Origin: Stephanodiscus triporus
Taxonomy: Eukaryota > Bacillariophyta > Thalassiosirophyceae > Thalassiosirales > Thalassiosiraceae
Reading direction: 5' to 3'
Length of the DNA: 14,386 nucleotides
NCBI GenBank assembly: GCA_036939755.1
Contig: JALLAZ010000527.1
Location: 1-14,386 of the forward strand
The notes under the pieces are model-generated. The model was given only the letters and a program-made list of their open reading frames with translations. It made no database searches and had not been told where the DNA came from. Of this stretch, positions 1 to 11,685 are shown one piece after another (positions within the stretch are counted from its first letter, which is position 1; every line of letters starts with the position of its first letter). Position numbers and translations under genes: made by a program.

Positions 1-306
1 TTGAATCGGGGGGGCTGGATTTGTGCGTTGTGGGAAATTATTTTTTTTAACGCGGTGCCGCACTTGTGTGGCAGGGGTAAATACTTACGTACGAGTTACG
101 AGGGCCTCGGTTCAAAAAAAAGTGGGGTGGTCCAGATCAATTGGCGGGAAACACGAAGGAGAGAACCAGAGGCTGCGCCGTGCGTGGTGACGTCGAATTG
201 ACGTCACTCTGCATCCCTCGCTCTCTCTCTCATCCATGAACCTCTGAGAATTGAGACAATTAAATGAAGCCGCTTCCTATTGTTAGTTGAGTTATCACAT
301 CACAGC
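1..306 (+). promoter_or_regulatory. Upstream region and 5' leader of the CLC gene
   Basis: No convincing gene lies here; an open frame over the first 200 bases has no homology I recognise. The stretch holds two CRE-like sites (188-206), a pyrimidine-rich CTCTCTCTCTC tract at about 219-231 that could mark transcription initiation, and two short upstream ORFs before the main ATG at 307. These are ATG 236 to TGA 247 (3 codons) and ATG 264 to TGA 290 (8 codons). Whether the uORFs are in the mRNA depends on the unknown transcription start. Confidence 0.5.
188..206. promoter_or_regulatory. Paired CRE-like sites (TGACGTC and TGACGTCA)
   Basis: TGACGTC at 188-194 is followed 4 bases later by a perfect palindromic cAMP-response element TGACGTCA at 199-206, about 100 bp before the CLC start codon. 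Diatom bZIP factors act on TGACGT/ACGTCA elements in CO2- and cAMP-responsive promoters such as that of the pyrenoid carbonic anhydrase of Phaeodactylum. That is knowledge of other genes; here regulation is inferred only from motif and position. Confidence 0.4.
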
Positions 307-2513
307 ATGATTGGGTCATCATTTCGTGTATTCTTCGTTGCATCTCTTCTGTACGTCGCGGTGGTTTTTCAACGAGCTCCGTGCGCCGATGCATTCCAGG
401 CGTCTTTTGCTCCGAAATGTGGCTTTCTCAATAGTTGTAGCATTCAAGGAGGGACGCGTTCTGCGTCGAGAAAGCCTAGGGAAAATATGTGGATGAAATC
501 ACATTTGATTCAGGAAGATATAAATGGAAATTCTCTCTCCGCTGATGACAAATTCATAACAGAAGAGAATGCATCGTCTTCGCCTTCATTCCGTCTTGAT
601 AAAGCATCTAGCACTACAGCGTCCACGAGCGGCACTTCCTCGCCGAAGTCTTCTCGACAACTTCCAACCAATTGGCTTGGCGAGAAGAACTACATCCTTT
701 TCACGGCCGTGTTGATAGGACTCTTCACCGGCACCAGTATTGCTGCATTCAAATCTGCCGTCGAATTCCTTCGTGAGGTATTATACGGAGATGGAATTGA
801 TCTACAGGTATTGAGTCCATTTTTATGGAAGTCGGGTGGTAAAGAAGTCCTTAGTTTTTCTATGAAGTTCGGCGAGATCATACCGCTATCGGCAATACCA
901 GCGTTGGGGGGATTGTTTGTGGGAATGCTGTTGAGATTTGGCGGTGACATGCCGCCAGGACTCCGAGACGCAGTAAAGGAAGGTACGGCATAATATCGTT
1001 GAATTGATTTTTTATTCTAACCATTGCCCCAAGCCAATCAGTCTCACGATCACACATGAACATTGTTGTATCGTATTTCAATCAATTGCATTACCTGTGA
1101 GAAACAGTCGAGCTGGACTCCATCCGCGCTTCAAATGCTACGCCGCCTACAGAACTTGTGCTGTGCACTAAAGACATTCCACCCCCATCAGAGCGAAATG
1201 ATTTCCTCCGATTCTCGCGGAAGGCTCTCGCTGCGACTGCCACCTTGGGAACAGGCAATAGTCTTGGACCTGAGGGTCCATCTGTCGAGGCAGGCATGAG
1301 TATTAGCCGTCTCTTGATGAATAATGAGTTCTTTTCACAACTCACCATGGTTTTTGGCACGTTGGAAGATAATTATATGAGTGAAGTTAAAAGAGTCAAT
1401 AGAAAGCTATCAAGGGATCGATTACTTTTGGCATGTGGGGCCGCAGCAGGTGTCAGCGCAGGTTTCAATGCTCCATTGAGTGGAGTTTTTTTTGCTTTGG
1501 AGGTCGTCCAAAGTGCCCTCAGTCCGATCGACATCCCTATCTCAAGCGAGAAGAATAATACTGATTTTGATCGAGGCGATGAGGTGCAAATTGCAACTAT
1601 TGGAGGAGAAGCACTTGCGTCGCAGCAGATTAATATCAGTGCTATTCTTCTCGCCTCGGTGGTTTCGGCGCTGACAATACAACTCCTACTGGGGAATAAG
1701 CTTGCTTTAAAGCTTGGTGCTTTCGACTTTAATAATCCTCTGATGGAGCTTCCTCTTTACGTTCTATTAGGTGTCATGTCAGGTATTACTGCAGCAACCT
1801 TTAGTGGCGTGGCACAGTTTCTGAAGAATTTGTTCGATGGGAAGGAAGGACCAGGATTCGTCCGAGAAATATTCATATCGATTCCCAAATATGCGAAGCC
1901 ATTGATTGGCAGTGTTATTTGTGGGATAGTTGCGATTTACGTTCCTGAAGTTTTATTCTTTGGATATGAAACTCTCAATGGCCTGTTTTTGATATCTGGT
2001 GGGTATATTCCCACTGGATATCTATTTATAATGCTAGTGGCCAAGCTCATGACAACAGCAAGCAGTGCCTCCAGTGGATTAGTTGGCGGGACATTTGCGC
2101 CATCGCTATTCTTAGGAGGTGTTTTGGGAGCGGGGTTTCATAATGTTATCACTGATTCTCTGCAGAGCATATCGCTCGCGTACCCTCAATTATCGGCTTA
2201 TTCAATCTTTCAGGGTGTTTCGGGGCTTCCAGTATTCGCGATGGTCGGCGCGGCATCAGTTTTGGCCGCCCTCTTCCGTGCACCGTTGACGGCCTCACTT
2301 TTGCTTTTTGAATGCACAGGAAATTATGATGTTATACTTCCTTTAATGGCCTCGGCGGGTGTAGCTTCGCTCACTGGCGACATATTTGAGAAGTGGTTAG
2401 ATGAAGAGCAGCGTGAGAGTGACAACGTGAGTTGGGGTGGTTTGGCTACGAGAACTTACGAAGAGATTGACGATGATATCTGCCTCACTCCTCCCGAGAG
2501 TAGCATCGAATAA
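307..2513 (+). CDS. CLC-family chloride channel, predicted plastid-targeted
   Basis: Two exons, 307-982 and 1108-2513, join through a 125 bp intron (GTACGG...CAG, phase 1) into 693 residues. The first ATG is at 307; the frame continues upstream only through a TTG. Residues 1-29 are a hydrophobic signal peptide ending ADA|F, the diatom ASAF-type site, followed by a Ser/Lys/Arg-rich transit-like stretch to about 120. This predicts import into the complex plastid. The CLC core follows, with GTGNSLGPEGPSVE (gating glutamate E281), GTFAP at 553-557 and the anion-coordinating tyrosine in GNY at 632. The GTGNSLGPEGP form resembles plant CLC-e. The usual GSGIP loop is not conserved (residues 213-220 read GDMPPGLR). 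At the internal proton-glutamate position the protein reads E357-V358, where antiporters have a second Glu, so a channel is more likely than an exchanger. There are no C-terminal CBS domains. It probably conducts Cl-/NO3- across a thylakoid or envelope membrane. Confidence 0.92.
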
Positions 2514-5252: not shown

Positions 5253-7211
5253 ATGAAAATACTGAACTCCGCCTCAGTCGCCGCTGCTTCCGAAGATGCT
5301 ACGGCTCAATTACCTCATCCCCAGGCATCAACTGCAACCGCAAGTACCACCACGATCAGTAGCCTGTTTTCCAGTGACGAAGATGCAGCAGATGATGGTC
5401 GGCTAGATCATGACAACGTTTGGGAATATTTCAGTGAGGCCCATGTCAAACGAATGAACAAAATAGCCGAAGATGAGAATAAAAGATTAAACTTGAACCT
5501 CGGCATGCCCGTAGATCTCACAGTTTTCACGAGGCGTGATGTGGCTGCCTCAGGAGTGGTACAAAAAGTGTTGCGCCCGCCAATACGAATGCTCCTTCGT
5601 CTTCTGGATCGTCTATTGGCATTCATCGAAAGCCCAGTTTTCCACGTTTGGGGCAATTGCGTTCCTTTGAGGCTGAGGCAAAAGGTTACCTTTTTAGCTT
5701 GGGGGTTGTACCTCCCCATCCATAAAGCATTGATTGGACGGAAGACGGGATTGCATCGGGATGTAAGCTTGGAGTGTCATGCTTTGACTTCCGTTATCTG
5801 GTGGGGAAGATTGGTGCGTTTTTACGATCCATTACATTTCATAAAAATGAATACCCCTCCTAACTTGGCCTTTTTGTACATCGATTGCAGTTCCCTGTCA
5901 CAATCAAACGAATGAGATTTTCACTCAGCCAATTGCATGTGTGGCATCCTCCTGAACAGTGAGATTTATTTTTTTGGCATAACCGAGATTCCATGGATAA
6001 GTCGCTCACCTTTTCTATCTTTCCAAAATATTCAAAGATACCCGCAATGGACCTTGGCAGAAAAATATCGGGAAACACATGATATCCTAAACAAGCCACG
6101 TAATGGTAATAGACATGGTATCCGTGGTCATTTGTATGAAGTTCATCATCGAATGAAACAGAAACGCACCCCCACGGGAATCCGAGACTCAACCGAAGAT
6201 GTATCCGTTGAAGAGATGGTAGTCACTGGCCAATATGTTCAACATTCATCCCAACCATCGCAAAAGGTAATATTTTGGATATTTGGTGGAGCATTCTTGG
6301 GCGGAGATAGTAAAGGCAACCTGGGCATTGCAGAGAAGATGGGTATGATCTGTGCAAATCGGGAGGAACATAATCGTAGCGATGATGGCATGCGAGATGT
6401 ATTCATACCCGATTACCGGCTTGTTCCTGAACACCACCTTGATGATGCGATTCATGATATTGCATTGGCGTATGAGTATTTGATCTATGAACGACATATT
6501 CGACCTGATGATATAATCTTGGTGGGGGTTAGCTCTGGAGGCGGTTTGGTCGTGCTTCTATTGCAGGCTCTTGCAAGGGCGAAGCGTGAATTCGAGGAGA
6601 AGAATGCAGTTACTGGACATGACGAATGGGACTACAGCAGCTCGAGTTGTGCAGTCCCGATGCCTGCGGGAGGTGTGATGATGGGTCCATTTGTAGATTA
6701 TACTGACCCAAAGGGCTCCATGAAAGAGTATATCAAACATGACTTGATCGTCAATCAGGTATGTCAGTAGATTTTTTGTTGCATGCCGCTGCCATTGTGC
6801 AAATCTCATGTAATTTTTCGTCCGTCCTTGTCGATAGTCTGTATATGATGAAGGGATTCCCTATCTAGAGAAAGTTCTCGGCTCTCATGAAAATCGCGTC
6901 AAAGCCTCGCCAGTGTTTGGTAGCTTTGAAGGTCTTCCACCTCTGTGTGTCTGTGTTAGTCAGCACGAGGTTGTGTTTGATCAGGCAATGCTTTTGGCAA
7001 AACGCGCCAAGGAGCAGGGCGTTGATGTCACAGTTGGCGTTTGGAAATACATGTAAGTCACATCGTTTGTGCTCTAGAACAAAATATTTGCATTAGTGAT
7101 TTCTAACTCTTTCTGTTGATTAGGTGCCATATTTTTCCACTGCTGTGCCCATTTTTACCGGAGGGACAGGAAAGTTTCGATTTCATGTGTGACTGGATAA
7201 GACGTCGTTGA
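5253..7211 (+). CDS. Alpha/beta hydrolase (HSL / arylacetamide deacetylase-like)
   Basis: Five exons, 5253-5813, 5891-5958, 6038-6758, 6838-7052 and 7124-7211, give 550 residues. The introns are 77, 79, 79 and 71 bp, GT-AG, with consistent phases. The 68 bp second exon encodes FPVTIKRM...VWHPPE and restores a continuous protein. Residues 1-60 are Ala/Ser/Thr-rich and disordered; about 60-200 form a helical N-terminal region with amphipathic segments; the hydrolase core starts near 285. It shows an oxyanion-loop segment IFGGAF (291-296), a nucleophile elbow GVSSG with S375, an acid candidate D498 in VFDQA, and H524 in MCHIF, so the triad is complete. The family normally has HGGG or HGGA at the oxyanion loop; here the histidine is phenylalanine. 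Esterase or lipase activity on lipid or xenobiotic esters is inferred. No signal peptide is obvious. Confidence 0.87.
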
Positions 7212-7676: not shown

Positions 7677-8387
7677 TCACGCCCCCCGCCGAAACACATC
7701 CATACTCCCATCCCTCAGAATGCATACGCACGCATGCATCCCCATGGGCGGGAAGATCATCCACAGGCTATTCGAGAATCCTACGAATAAGCATACCTCC
7801 AGCATCGACTTGCCCACGTACCGCCGGTTGTACACGAAGGAAAGGAGGTAGATGATCGTGCCGTACATTACCTGCCAGTACATCGCCAATCCTATGCACC
7901 CCACCCACAGCGGCGACACCTTATCCGGCCATACGATCGCGACATTGATCAGTAAGGATGGCGGGATCGTCGACATTCCGTTCCCGAAATCGATGAAGAA
8001 TCCGAACGATTCCCGATTCTGATAGGACGGGTCGTACAGCGAGTACGTGGACCACATCCTGCTCCAAACCTTCGAGTCGAACAGCTGGCCGATCGTCAGC
8101 GGCATCGTCAGGTACGCGACGCAGGCATCCCACTCGTTCCCCTTGTACGTCTCGCGCAGGTTCAAGTAATCGCGTTGGATGTACCCTATATTCATTCCCA
8201 GGCAGATCTCGCACATGGCGATGAAAATATTCAGGTTGTTGAAGAAGAGGAGACATGGCACGAGTATTGTCGAGGAAGTCGTCGCCTTGGAGGGTGGGGG
8301 GGGCAGCTGGGAGAGGAAGAGGGAGGTCGTGAGGACGAGCCAAAGGGCTATCGCGCAGCCGACGTTTAGGATCTTGAGAGACGACAT
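7677..8387 (-). CDS. Polytopic membrane protein, EBP/EXPERA-like (tentative)
   Basis: A single-exon frame of 236 residues starts at the first in-frame ATG (8387). Residues 8-28 form an N-terminal hydrophobic helix, possibly a signal anchor, and about four more membrane segments follow near 40-70, 135-155, 160-185 and 195-222. Several motifs resemble emopamil-binding proteins: MWSTYSLYDPSY (111-122) against their W-K-E-Y-A-x-x-D-x-R-Y, D133 ten residues before a proline pair, QVMYGTIIY (172-180) against QIYGDVLYF, and SNSLWMIFP (205-213) against MNALWLVLP. The histidine and threonine used by sterol isomerases do not seem to be kept, so catalysis may be lost. Third codon positions are strongly C/G, unlike the neighbours. 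That may mean high expression and explains the long spurious frames in other phases. Divergent from eEFSec with 158 bp between starts. Function unknown; the family guess is mine. Confidence 0.68.
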   Translation of the reverse strand: MSSLKILNVGCAIALWLVLTTSLFLSQLPPPPSKATTSSTILVPCLLFFNNLNIFIAMCEICLGMNIGYIQRDYLNLRETYKGNEWDACVAYLTMPLTIGQLFDSKVWSRMWSTYSLYDPSYQNRESFGFFIDFGNGMSTIPPSLLINVAIVWPDKVSPLWVGCIGLAMYWQVMYGTIIYLLSFVYNRRYVGKSMLEVCLFVGFSNSLWMIFPPMGMHACVCILRDGSMDVFRRGA

Positions 8388-8545: not shown

Positions 8546-11500
8546 ATGGTAGCCCCCCCGCGGCGCCGTCCACAATTCAGTCGAAGGGCATGGTGCTGGA
8601 CAAAAGAAGGCAATATGGCGACATTGAAGGGTGCAAAAAAGAAGATAGACATCAATGATATCCGCGCAGACAGAGGCGGGGATCCAGAAAAATATCGTCG
8701 GGCTCTGTCGATGTATGATTCTTCCTCCTCACCGTCGATTCCGCGGGCTTCCCCCCTGCATAAAAATAACGATGGCGGGGATTGCTCCGCATCGGCGCCG
8801 TACATAGATGAAGCATTATCCCTCGATTCCCAACGCCGGTCGACGCTCACAAACCTCGAAAGTCTCCGATCCAAACTGTCGAATTTGCAAAAAACTGTCG
8901 TAGCGCCCAAGATGAAGGCCAAAGAGGACGTCACCCAAGAGTTGGCACAAATGAAGGAGTGGAAAACGGAGATAACGAAACTATCAAATGAAGTGAACGA
9001 TGCGGAGAAGAGGAGGGACGCGCTGCTTGACAAAATCAACGAGGTATTGGCGAATATCAATTTGGACGAAATGGTTTTGCGCGATGTTGGCTCGGCTGAC
9101 AACAGCGCAACGCCGGGGCCGGGCCGTGACAAGGTCGTTGCAGTTCAGGCCCAGCAAAAGATGCAACAACCGTTATCGGTATCAGCTGCTGCATTTTCGC
9201 CCAAAACTCCAGTGAAACCAATTGGCGAGACATCCTCCACTGTCCCCCTCCTATCTCCGGAGGAAATTAAATCAGTACCGCCCGAGAGAATTCTCAATAT
9301 CAACGTTGGTGTCCTAGGTCATGTCGATACTGGCAAAACCTCTCTAGTGAAAACTCTCAGCTCTGTTCTCTCCACTGCTGCATTGGATAAATCCAAGCAA
9401 TCACGAGCGAGGGGTATCACGTTAGACTTGGGTTTCTCTGCTTTTTTATTACCGTTGCCGGAGCATATGAGGAAAGCGGACGCGGTTGGCGGTGATAGTT
9501 GCAAGGACAATGAAACATCTAATAACGACAGCGGCAACGGTTCAAAACAAAATGCTCATGACACCAAAAATACTGATGCCGATTCGCGAGAAACGAACCT
9601 ACGACACAAGTACGACTTGCTTCAGGTTACACTCGTGGACTGTCCCGGCCACGCCTCATTGATCAGAACCATAATCGGAGGAGCTCAAATCATCGACATG
9701 ATCTTGCTCGTCGTGGATGCTACCAAGGGAATGCAAACACAAACGGCCGAATGCCTCGTCATCGCCGAAATGACAACTCGCAATTTAATTGTGGTTCTCA
9801 ACAAGATTGATATGTTTCCAGAGAATGAACGCGAAGACCGATTGCGCGTGGCGGAGAAGAAAATGAGGGCTGCACTTCGAGGGACCAAATTTGAGGATGC
9901 CCAGATGGTAGGCATAAGCGCATGTGTGGGTGGCGAGAAGGTGGCTGCCGTGGGAGGCACTGGCGCCGGTGATGTGGGTCACGGCGGGATAACGGCGGCT
10001 AAGGTTGCGGGAACGCACAATATTCACGGTCTACTGAACTTATTACAATCGCAAATGCGAGCGCCGCATCGAGATGCCCGCCCATCGCCCGATCAATTCC
10101 ATTTTGCCGTGGATCACTGCTTTCCCATCAAGGGCCAAGGGACTGTCCTCACGGGTACCTGTCTGGCAGGGTCCGCTCGCCCTAACGATATGGTGGAATT
10201 TCCCACCCTATCAATACAGAAGAAGATAAAAGGTCTTCAAATGTTCAGACGAAAGGCGAGTATTGTTCAACAGGGCGATAGAGCTGGGATTTGTGTTTCA
10301 AATTTCGATGCCAAGTTGATGGAACGTGGTATCATCGCCTCTCCCGGAACTGTGACATTAATACGTGGAGCAATCGCAACTGTGCGGAAGGTGCGCTTCT
10401 TTAAGGGAGAGCTGAACTCAGGGGCGAAGTTCCATATCAGTGTTGGACATACAACGGTAATGGCCACTGTCACATTCTGGGGTGCTCGTGAGATTGCGAA
10501 GCAGGTGCAATATGAAGAGGAAAAGAAAACGGAAGCATTTGGAAAATCGTCACTAGGAGGCTCCGCGGACTTGGCGGGTTTGCCTCGGTTAAAGTTTGAC
10601 TGGAATCAAGATTTCTTGCATCAGGACAATTATCTCGATTCGCTTCCAACATGTGACAACAATTCTGAGTGGGATAAGTCGACGCCAGAACAAGGAAACA
10701 GGAAAGACACTCTTCCGCCCTTGCATTGGGCAAGGCTCGAGTTTCTCACTCCTGTATATTGTCCTATGGATTCTCTTGTGATTGGGTCAAGGCTGGATTC
10801 GGATGTGAATGCCAATGCTTGTCGACTTGCTTTTTCCGGCCGGTTAGTTGAGAGATATAATGCAAAATCTGTAAGAGATAGTGGATTTTTTGTCGTTCCA
10901 TCTCTTCCTTCTCTCACATTGTCATCTCATCTCTGTCACTTCTCAAGGATCACGGCCGTTTGAGAACATACACCAAAAAAGTAAAAGTGGGCACTGTATG
11001 TCGGCTAGGCGATCCTTTCAGACGCACCGATGACAACAAAATAGTTCGCTATGAAGTCTTTGGCACAGACTTATTTAAAAAGGAAACCAATATGACGCAA
11101 TTTGTTGGTCTGCTTGTTGAAACTGACAATGGTGATGTCGGAAGCATTCAATCATCGTTCGGAACCTCGGGTAAATTCCGTGTCAATTTTCCAGGTGGTA
11201 CTGAAATCCGTGAGGGCGACCCGTTGTATCTGCGCTTTAAACGATATGCCAACGATCCTAAAAAGGCCATACACCAGGACGGAATCCTCCCTCCCGCAAG
11301 GACTGGCACTATCGTTGATCCTCCGGTGAAAAAGAAAAAAAATAAAGGTAAGAATGGAAAAATTCAGCATGGATCACTACAATCAGCGGCGGCAAATAGC
11401 ACAACAAGAAAGGATGATGCTAAGACAAACAATTCATTCGGAGACATTGTGAAACTCAAAGGAGAACTATTAGACAACGGCAAGCACACTGTAGCAATTG

Positions 11501-11685
11501 TGGCGGGATTGTTTTCCATGGAAGACGATATCAGTCAACACAAAGGACGCAGCATATTGTCCCTTTCAACCGAAGAAGAGGGAACGGTCGATGGTTCATT
11601 TGGAAAAATGGGAAAATGCAAAGTTTTTTTCAAGGAGGGTGTCTCTGCAAAGATTGGAAGTAAAGTAAAAATGATAATAAATTAA
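8546..11685 (+). CDS. EEFSEC: Selenocysteine-specific elongation factor (eEFSec) with SerRS-arm fusion
   Basis: Two exons, 8546-10870 and 10948-11685, join in phase 0 over a 77 bp intron (GTAAGA...CAAG) into 1020 residues. The protein is a GTPase that delivers Sec-tRNA-Sec to UGA codons in selenoprotein mRNAs with SECIS elements. Residues 34-183 resemble the SerRS tRNA-binding arm; 184-247 are a Pro/Ser/Gln linker. The G domain has GHVDTGKT (258-265), RGITLD (289-294), DCPGH (365-369) and NKID (419-422), plus an Asn/Asp/Ser-rich insert at about 310-352. Domains II and III follow. D523, H524 and R579 match the pair and arginine reported to bind Sec in human eEFSec. Domain IV (about 780-876) contains GTDLFKKETN and SSFGTSGKF. 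After a Lys-rich linker (902-911), residues 940-1020 look like a second, diverged domain IV barrel. M24 at 8615 has better start context (A at -3, G at +4) and may be used, giving 997 residues. Confidence 0.94.
8645..9094 (+). other. SerRS N-terminal tRNA-binding arm domain within eEFSec
   Basis: Residues 34-183. The first helix IDINDIRADRGGDPEKYR matches the opening of eukaryotic cytosolic SerRS (pattern L-D-x-N-x-F-R-x-x-K-G-G-x-P-E-x-x-R). A Ser/Pro/Asn-rich insert (about 57-82) follows. A long heptad-rich coiled coil (about 86-170) has the order seen in SerRS: IDEAL..LD.QRR, LESLRSKLSNLQK, a basic turn with AKEDV, then the returning helix ELAQMK.WK.EI..L..EV to DALLDKI, and a short VL segment where SerRS arms end before the catalytic domain. 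No class II synthetase motif follows; the frame runs into the GTPase domain instead. Residue comparison is by eye from family knowledge. Confidence 0.8.
11440..11682 (+). repeat. Diverged second copy of eEFSec domain IV barrel
   Basis: Residues 986-1019 (GTVDGSFGKMGKCKVFF region) align without gaps to 840-873 of the main domain IV (GSIQSSFGTSGKFRVNF region) with about 10 identities in 34, including SFG, GK, V, F and two late glycines. The preceding VAGLFSMEDD also parallels VGLLVETDNG. Both are followed by alternating hydrophobic strands. A Lys/Asn-rich linker separates them. Confidence 0.6.

Follow-up and report, generated by a model that had tools for sequence, protein, structure and literature searches.

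How eEFSec, the selenocysteine elongation factor, selects tRNA-Sec among all aminoacyl-tRNAs is described as an open question in a passage of PMC5059743. A locus of the diatom Stephanodiscus triporus bears on that question, since an earlier note on it had claimed that a tRNA-binding arm of seryl-tRNA synthetase (SerRS) is fused in frame to eEFSec. What this N-terminal segment is, where it came from and what it might do for the factor are considered here. The window, meaning the whole stretch of DNA analysed, comprises 14,386 nucleotides of contig JALLAZ010000527.1, and residues of its eEFSec protein are counted from position 8546 unless another protein is named.

Gene structure and the eEFSec body

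The gene model of the fusion is that of the present analysis and was drawn from the genomic sequence (assembly of 21.65 Mb in 1,324 contigs). An uninterrupted frame on the forward strand runs from 8546 as far as the splice donor of an intron of 77 nt (GTAAGA...CTCAAG, 10871..10947) and spans both the arm and the GTPase, which agrees with the single intron-free frame claimed earlier. Coding exon 2 (10948..11685, forward) holds the eEFSec C-terminal RIFT domain IV (PF21131) and the stop codon, and the spliced junction AKSDHGRL is present in P0001, a relative that is transcript-derived according to its name. When P0001 is aligned to the genome, a first block (8627-10870, 78% identity) ends exactly at 10870, and a second (10906-11682, 72%) begins within the intron and spans exon 2. 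Spliced translation from 8546 reproduces the 1020 residues of the earlier note, with GHVDTGKT at 258; however, homologue N-termini lie near Met24 (MVTMKGAKKNIDIN in P0018), so that translation probably begins at nt 8615 and yields 997 aa. The in-frame upstream ATG would add 23 arginine-rich residues (8546-8614) that are unalignable to the homologue N-termini seen, and judged by those homologues Met24 is the likelier start. Coding exon 1 is accordingly given as 8615..10870 (forward), from the open frame, the homologue N-termini and the end of the P0001 block.

Four Pfam domains of the factor follow in order on the forward strand. The GTPase domain (PF00009, aa 252-460, 9299..9925, with the G1 motif GHVDTGKT at 9317-9340) scores 95.3 bits against a cut-off of 26.5, eukaryotic SelB domain III (PF21208, 10373..10840) 110.4 against 27, and domain IV 79.5 against 27, all above threshold, whereas EF-Tu domain 2 (PF03144, 10139..10330) falls below its cut-off of 30.3 at 25.8 bits. 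Compared with PDB, the body matches human eEFSec best (5izk and 7zjw, 391 bits). Asp229, His230 and Arg285 of human eEFSec are Sec-pocket residues whose substitution abolished activity, as stated in part of PMC5059743. These three are identical in the window by the PDB alignment, with positions counted by hand and a 20-residue tag offset inferred, and their counterparts in P0001 (D497, H498, R553) are invariant in a 59-sequence alignment. The eEFSec part apparently is intact as judged from these sequence features, with no sign of a broken factor. In the fusion group the GTPase also contains a variable insertion ahead of the DCPGH motif (aa 303-353; P0001 aa 285-329), with 32% mean identity and pLDDT below 50.

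Three other genes or reading frames were noted in the window. A CLC voltage-gated chloride channel gene lies at 280-2513 (forward) as two ORFs, the second matching PF00654 with 211 bits; an intron somewhere in the interval from about 980 to 1160 may separate them. An alpha/beta hydrolase of the hormone-sensitive-lipase-like type lies at 5937-6770 (forward). The nearest, at 7677-8387 (reverse), is an ORF that appears membrane-spanning by eye and has no match in Pfam or NCBIfam; it is divergent from the eEFSec gene over roughly 160-230 bp.

Identity and predicted fold of the N-terminal domain

Ahead of the GTPase, eEFSec is fused to the whole tRNA-binding domain of the SerRS N-terminus, comprising helix 1 and the two-helix arm. 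The in-frame fusion claimed earlier is borne out by profile, alignment and predicted fold alike. The SerRS N-terminal family PF02403 (Seryl_tRNA_N) matches aa 85-164 with 35.6 bits (curated cut-off 28.2, E 1.2e-8), and the second-best of 24,736 Pfam families on the protein stands at E 0.013, six orders of magnitude behind. Outside this match, the helix-1 motif IDINDIRADRGGDPEKYRRAL (aa 34-54, 8645..8707, forward) aligns to IDINELRDYKGGDPAKWRKHM of P0124, a cytosolic SerRS; a single BLASTP alignment carries helix 1 and the arm together along P0124 (33% over 135 aa, 72.8 bits). Between them lies a variable insert (aa 55-83, 8708..8794, forward) that is short in Skeletonema-type members. The antiparallel coiled-coil arm itself, as delimited by PF02403 and the predicted structure, occupies aa 84-170 (8795..9055, forward) and is followed by a linker (aa 171-232, 9056..9241, forward) and by a conserved pre-GTPase segment, LPLLSPEEIKSVPPERILN.. 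(aa 233-257, 9242..9316, forward), which begins VPLLSPEE in the window. Of the arm boundaries 34-183 proposed earlier, helix 1 and the coiled coil therefore stand, and the distal limit moves back to near residue 170.

Structural evidence points the same way. The top five matches among PDB sequences are all SerRS, of which the first alone has E below 0.001 (0.00066; the other four 0.0056-0.015), and a second PDB sequence search likewise ranks SerRS first. An AlphaFold2 model (mean pLDDT 74.4, pTM 0.57) predicts an antiparallel two-helix arm behind a short N-terminal helix, the arm helices at 85-124 and 130-169 having pLDDT of about 98. When this model was compared with known structures, SerRS took the first ten places among 50 listed PDB matches; the SerRS matches align model residues 31-33 through 164-176, and the structural matches include 8p7b/8p7d and the tRNA-Sec complex 4rqf. 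In a full-length model of P0001 (mean pLDDT 72.3, pTM 0.56) the arm reaches about 94 and the equivalent linker (143-206) falls below 50, so that the linker is probably a flexible tether. Neither exon has a Pfam match, at E up to 10, to the SerRS class II catalytic domain PF00587, and the earlier statement that no catalytic SerRS domain is present holds.

Distribution and origin of the fusion

In a full-length search 8,000 candidates were scored, and 1,500 proteins reached E <= 1e-5; the window, the best 120 of these 1,500 and three proteins from the arm search with P0039 made up a set of 124 eEFSec rows. The arm is present in 40 of the 124, 37 by pattern and P0003, P0022 and P0057 by eye, and the architecture is thus found in other diatoms, as had been proposed as a check. 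A clear short armless N-terminus is seen in 67 rows, and P0046 is also armless with an uncertain start. The other 16 are undecidable, being 12 models that lack an N-terminus, two that start within the arm (P0006, P0023) and two that look truncated (P0015, P0035). Precomputed domain lists place PF02403 on 37 of the 39 arm-bearing homologues (missing on P0009 and P0012), and it was over cut-off in ten of ten homologues scanned, all ten having been pre-chosen as bearing it. Two relatives, P0001 and P0008, have MMETSP transcript names marked complete and hold arm and GTPase in a single ORF, which speaks against separate messages for the two parts.

Named carriers among the best 120 of 1,500 are Thalassiosira profunda, T. 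exigua, Cyclostephanos tholiformis, Skeletonema marinoi and Stephanocyclus meneghinianus, four of them Thalassiosirales by taxonomy look-up and the fifth another Thalassiosira; named armless rows from the same 120 are Fistulifera, Cylindrotheca, Seminavis and Nitzschia. A quick tree of 108 rows, computed with the arm columns excluded (LG+G4, SH-aLRT alone, midpoint root), nonetheless places the arm carriers in one group of 40 rows with SH-aLRT 100. This group holds 34 rows with the arm by pattern, five unclear (P0003, P0006, P0022, P0023, P0035) and P0015, labelled armless; the other 67 of the 68 rows labelled armless fall outside it, as does P0046. Five long end branches occur in the tree, none inside the arm group. 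Presence and absence of the arm require two changes on the tree, P0015 being the second. Because linker sequence is still present in P0015, it is probably a truncated model, although its sequence may alternatively reflect loss of the arm. The simplest history would be a single gain of the fusion before the sampled Thalassiosirales diatoms diverged.

Searches with the arm region alone bear on both spread and source. With P0001 as query, limited to lengths of about 555-1766 aa and so with ordinary SerRS beyond reach, 26 of 1725 candidates were retained, all eEFSec fusions; with P0039, 15 of 1188 were retained, 14 fusions and the SerRS P0124. Both searches require shared 5-residue words, and the known fusions P0022, P0038 and P0042 are absent from both, so that carriers outside the group may exist. 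P0124, the sole SerRS recovered by the arm searches, is a protein of 492 aa of cytosolic type, identified as SerRS by TIGR00414 (397.7 bits, cut-off 301.65) and by PDB matches; that it comes from a diatom is a guess. It matches the P0039 arm at 40% identity over 88% coverage (E 5e-12 in 5.8 billion proteins) and shares a tip motif with the fusions (LNKLQKEVIAPKKKAKE in P0124, LSTLQKTVIAPKKKANE in fusions). An HMM of 36 fusion arms scores 91.9 bits on P0124; when the first 120 residues of P0124 were shuffled 1000 times, the highest score was 9.4. By these sequence comparisons the fused arm is like the domain of eukaryotic cytosolic SerRS.

Apart from the arm, no SerRS was found in the genome assembly by searches with PF02403, TIGR00414, PF00587 and P0124, and no SepSecS by a search with PF05889. 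The four PF00587 matches in the genome look, by eye and from their motifs, like ThrRS, two ProRS and HisRS. The missing SerRS and SepSecS read as an incomplete assembly rather than as loss. Two tRNA-Sec genes score over the cut-off of 47 (83.7 and 71.1 bits), at C766:2411-2496 (reverse) and C114:21176-21264 (forward), so the substrate exists in this genome. The two genes have pair-preserving differences in the D and anticodon stems; the copy on C114 has one additional base in the anticodon loop, and an RNase MRP match (55.4 bits) lies about 40 nt before it.

Conservation of the arm

Mean pairwise identities were calculated for 36 of the 40 arm carriers, P0010, P0012, P0024 and P0057 having been dropped by pattern, which gives 630 pairs. 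Helix 1 averages 73% and the coiled coil 61%, whereas the insert between them averages 21% (153 of 630 pairs comparable) and the linker 20% (500 of 630 pairs); conservation of the arm and not of the linker suggests selection on the arm rather than on the tether. Across the same 36 fusions the pre-GTPase segment averages 85%, the two GTPase blocks 98% and 92%, and domain II 91% (528 of 630 pairs). Some armless eEFSec proteins have an N-terminus similar to the pre-GTPase segment (ITAKDLKNIDPSRILN.. in P0048), and the arm was therefore probably placed before a pre-existing eEFSec.

On each of the two helices the conserved surface residues line up in a stripe, the strength of which was reached by 4 and 5 of 5000 permutations; these residues include R97, R98, E105, R108, S112, Q115 and K122 on the one hand and K137, K140, E154 and N165 on the other. 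The stripe lies just 31-44 degrees off the hydrophobic face, and packing may account for some of it. The basic residues K122, K124, K137 and K140 are retained in at least 34 of the 36 fusions and in P0124. At position 112, where P0124 has Asn, Ser is found in 35 of the 36 fusions, and this substitution suggests that arm contacts may have changed.

Proposed function and alternatives

SerRS is the enzyme that starts selenocysteine synthesis, and tRNA-Sec is its substrate. The reading that probably accounts best for the locus is that the SerRS N-terminal domain was fused once to an intact eEFSec and has been kept since as a second grip on tRNA-Sec that raises affinity. According to part of PMC11479938, the stalk of the SerRS N-terminal domain binds the cleft of the T-arm and long variable arm, and a passage of PMC5059743 describes the Sec-moiety pocket of eEFSec. 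The tethered arm would grip the long variable arm of tRNA-Sec as a second contact. The resulting avidity would give higher affinity for Sec-tRNA-Sec and keep other tRNA-binding proteins away from it until it reaches the ribosome, where the arm would let go. By analogy with SerRS, we infer the contact of the arm with tRNA-Sec, the gain in affinity and the release on the ribosome. Discrimination of tRNA-Sec from tRNA-Ser would stay with the eEFSec body, as the arm alone would hardly be able to provide it. Against the need for a fused arm stands the suggestion, in part of PMC5059743, that domain IV of human eEFSec may itself reach the variable arm.

A bolder form, in which the arm takes over tRNA-Sec from SerRS and keeps hold of the tRNA's variable arm as far as the ribosome, so that the pathway is channelled and the tRNA hardly ever free, is possible but on the doubtful side. 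The fused arm and SerRS would compete for one site on the tRNA, so that the hand-over from SerRS proposed earlier would presumably have to proceed by displacement. If true, a single diatom order would have a channelled selenocysteine pathway, with a synthetase selection module in cis on the elongation factor.

It is slightly less likely still that the arm keeps the SerRS fold without binding tRNA and acts as a coiled-coil dock for SerRS, SepSecS, SBP2 or the ribosome, which would bring eEFSec to where Sec-tRNA-Sec is made or used. Protein contacts often run through coiled coils, a loop of the SerRS N-terminal domain (K12, G13) contacts METTL6 in the part of PMC11479938 concerned, and the replacement of the SerRS Asn at position 112 would fit such a change of partner. 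Against a dock, the entire domain with helix 1 is conserved and the four lysines are kept, and the arm is joined to a carrier of a tRNA that SerRS itself uses as substrate.

Rather improbable is a role in which the arm displaces SerRS and keeps tRNA-Sec through phosphorylation and selenylation, the tRNA cycling among a few proteins. The binding module is the same as that of SerRS and the long linker is predicted to be disordered, as such a role would have it; but PSTK and SepSecS likewise require surfaces of tRNA-Sec, and SerRS and SepSecS themselves were not found in the assembly, which looks incomplete. Coiled coils do give weak matches to many families, yet a chance or convergent coiled coil, or an artefact of assembly or gene model, is barely credible given the PF02403 margin, the helix-1 motif, the P0124 match (E 5e-12), the HMM scores against shuffles, and the recurrence of the architecture in many database sequences, including the transcript-named P0001 and P0008.

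The second grip on tRNA-Sec remains the preferred reading, and an arm carried on eEFSec itself allows the part played by the variable arm to be probed through arm deletion in diatoms; Thalassiosira and Skeletonema are genera grown in culture.

Comparison with known systems

No report of a SerRS arm-eEFSec fusion was found in searches of open-licence literature. The terms 'SerRS' and 'seryl' are absent from PMC6627142 and PMC10215577, papers that name eEFSec and Thalassiosira; in PMC7539508, which also names both, 'SerRS' is absent, and passages describe other algal selenoprotein fusions, not SerRS-eEFSec.

The fusion has its GTPase, domains III and IV and Sec-pocket residues in common with human EEFSEC (5izk, 7zjw). 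The human chain matches from residue 27, probably directly after the tag, which leaves no room for an arm, and an arm is likewise missing from the 67 rows that lie outside the arm group and have a clear short N-terminus. With the SerRS N-terminal domain (PF02403) it has in common the helix-1 motif, the antiparallel two-helix arm and the tip motif of P0124; it differs in lacking a catalytic domain behind the arm, in the insert after helix 1 in many members, and in the change of Asn to Ser at residue 112.

Three other systems offer partial parallels, each as described in portions of its source. In the METTL6-SerRS-tRNA complex (PMC11479938) a tRNA-acting protein likewise uses SerRS as a tRNA selection factor, there as the whole enzyme in trans and in the diatoms as the arm in cis. 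Plant ProXp-ala (PMC9425024) is a tRNA-handling protein with a lineage-specific helical domain that improves tRNA binding, although protein and domain are different ones and the domain is C-terminal and dimerising. In the SLIMP/SerRS2alpha system of protostome mitochondria (PMC10817482) the SerRS arm and catalytic function evolve apart, as here, but the arm remains on a catalytically altered SerRS paralogue and not on an elongation factor. Set beside these, the diatom fusion does not amount to a new kind of system; it gives a known factor a new domain architecture, in which a synthetase tRNA-recognition domain has been reused within a translational GTPase.
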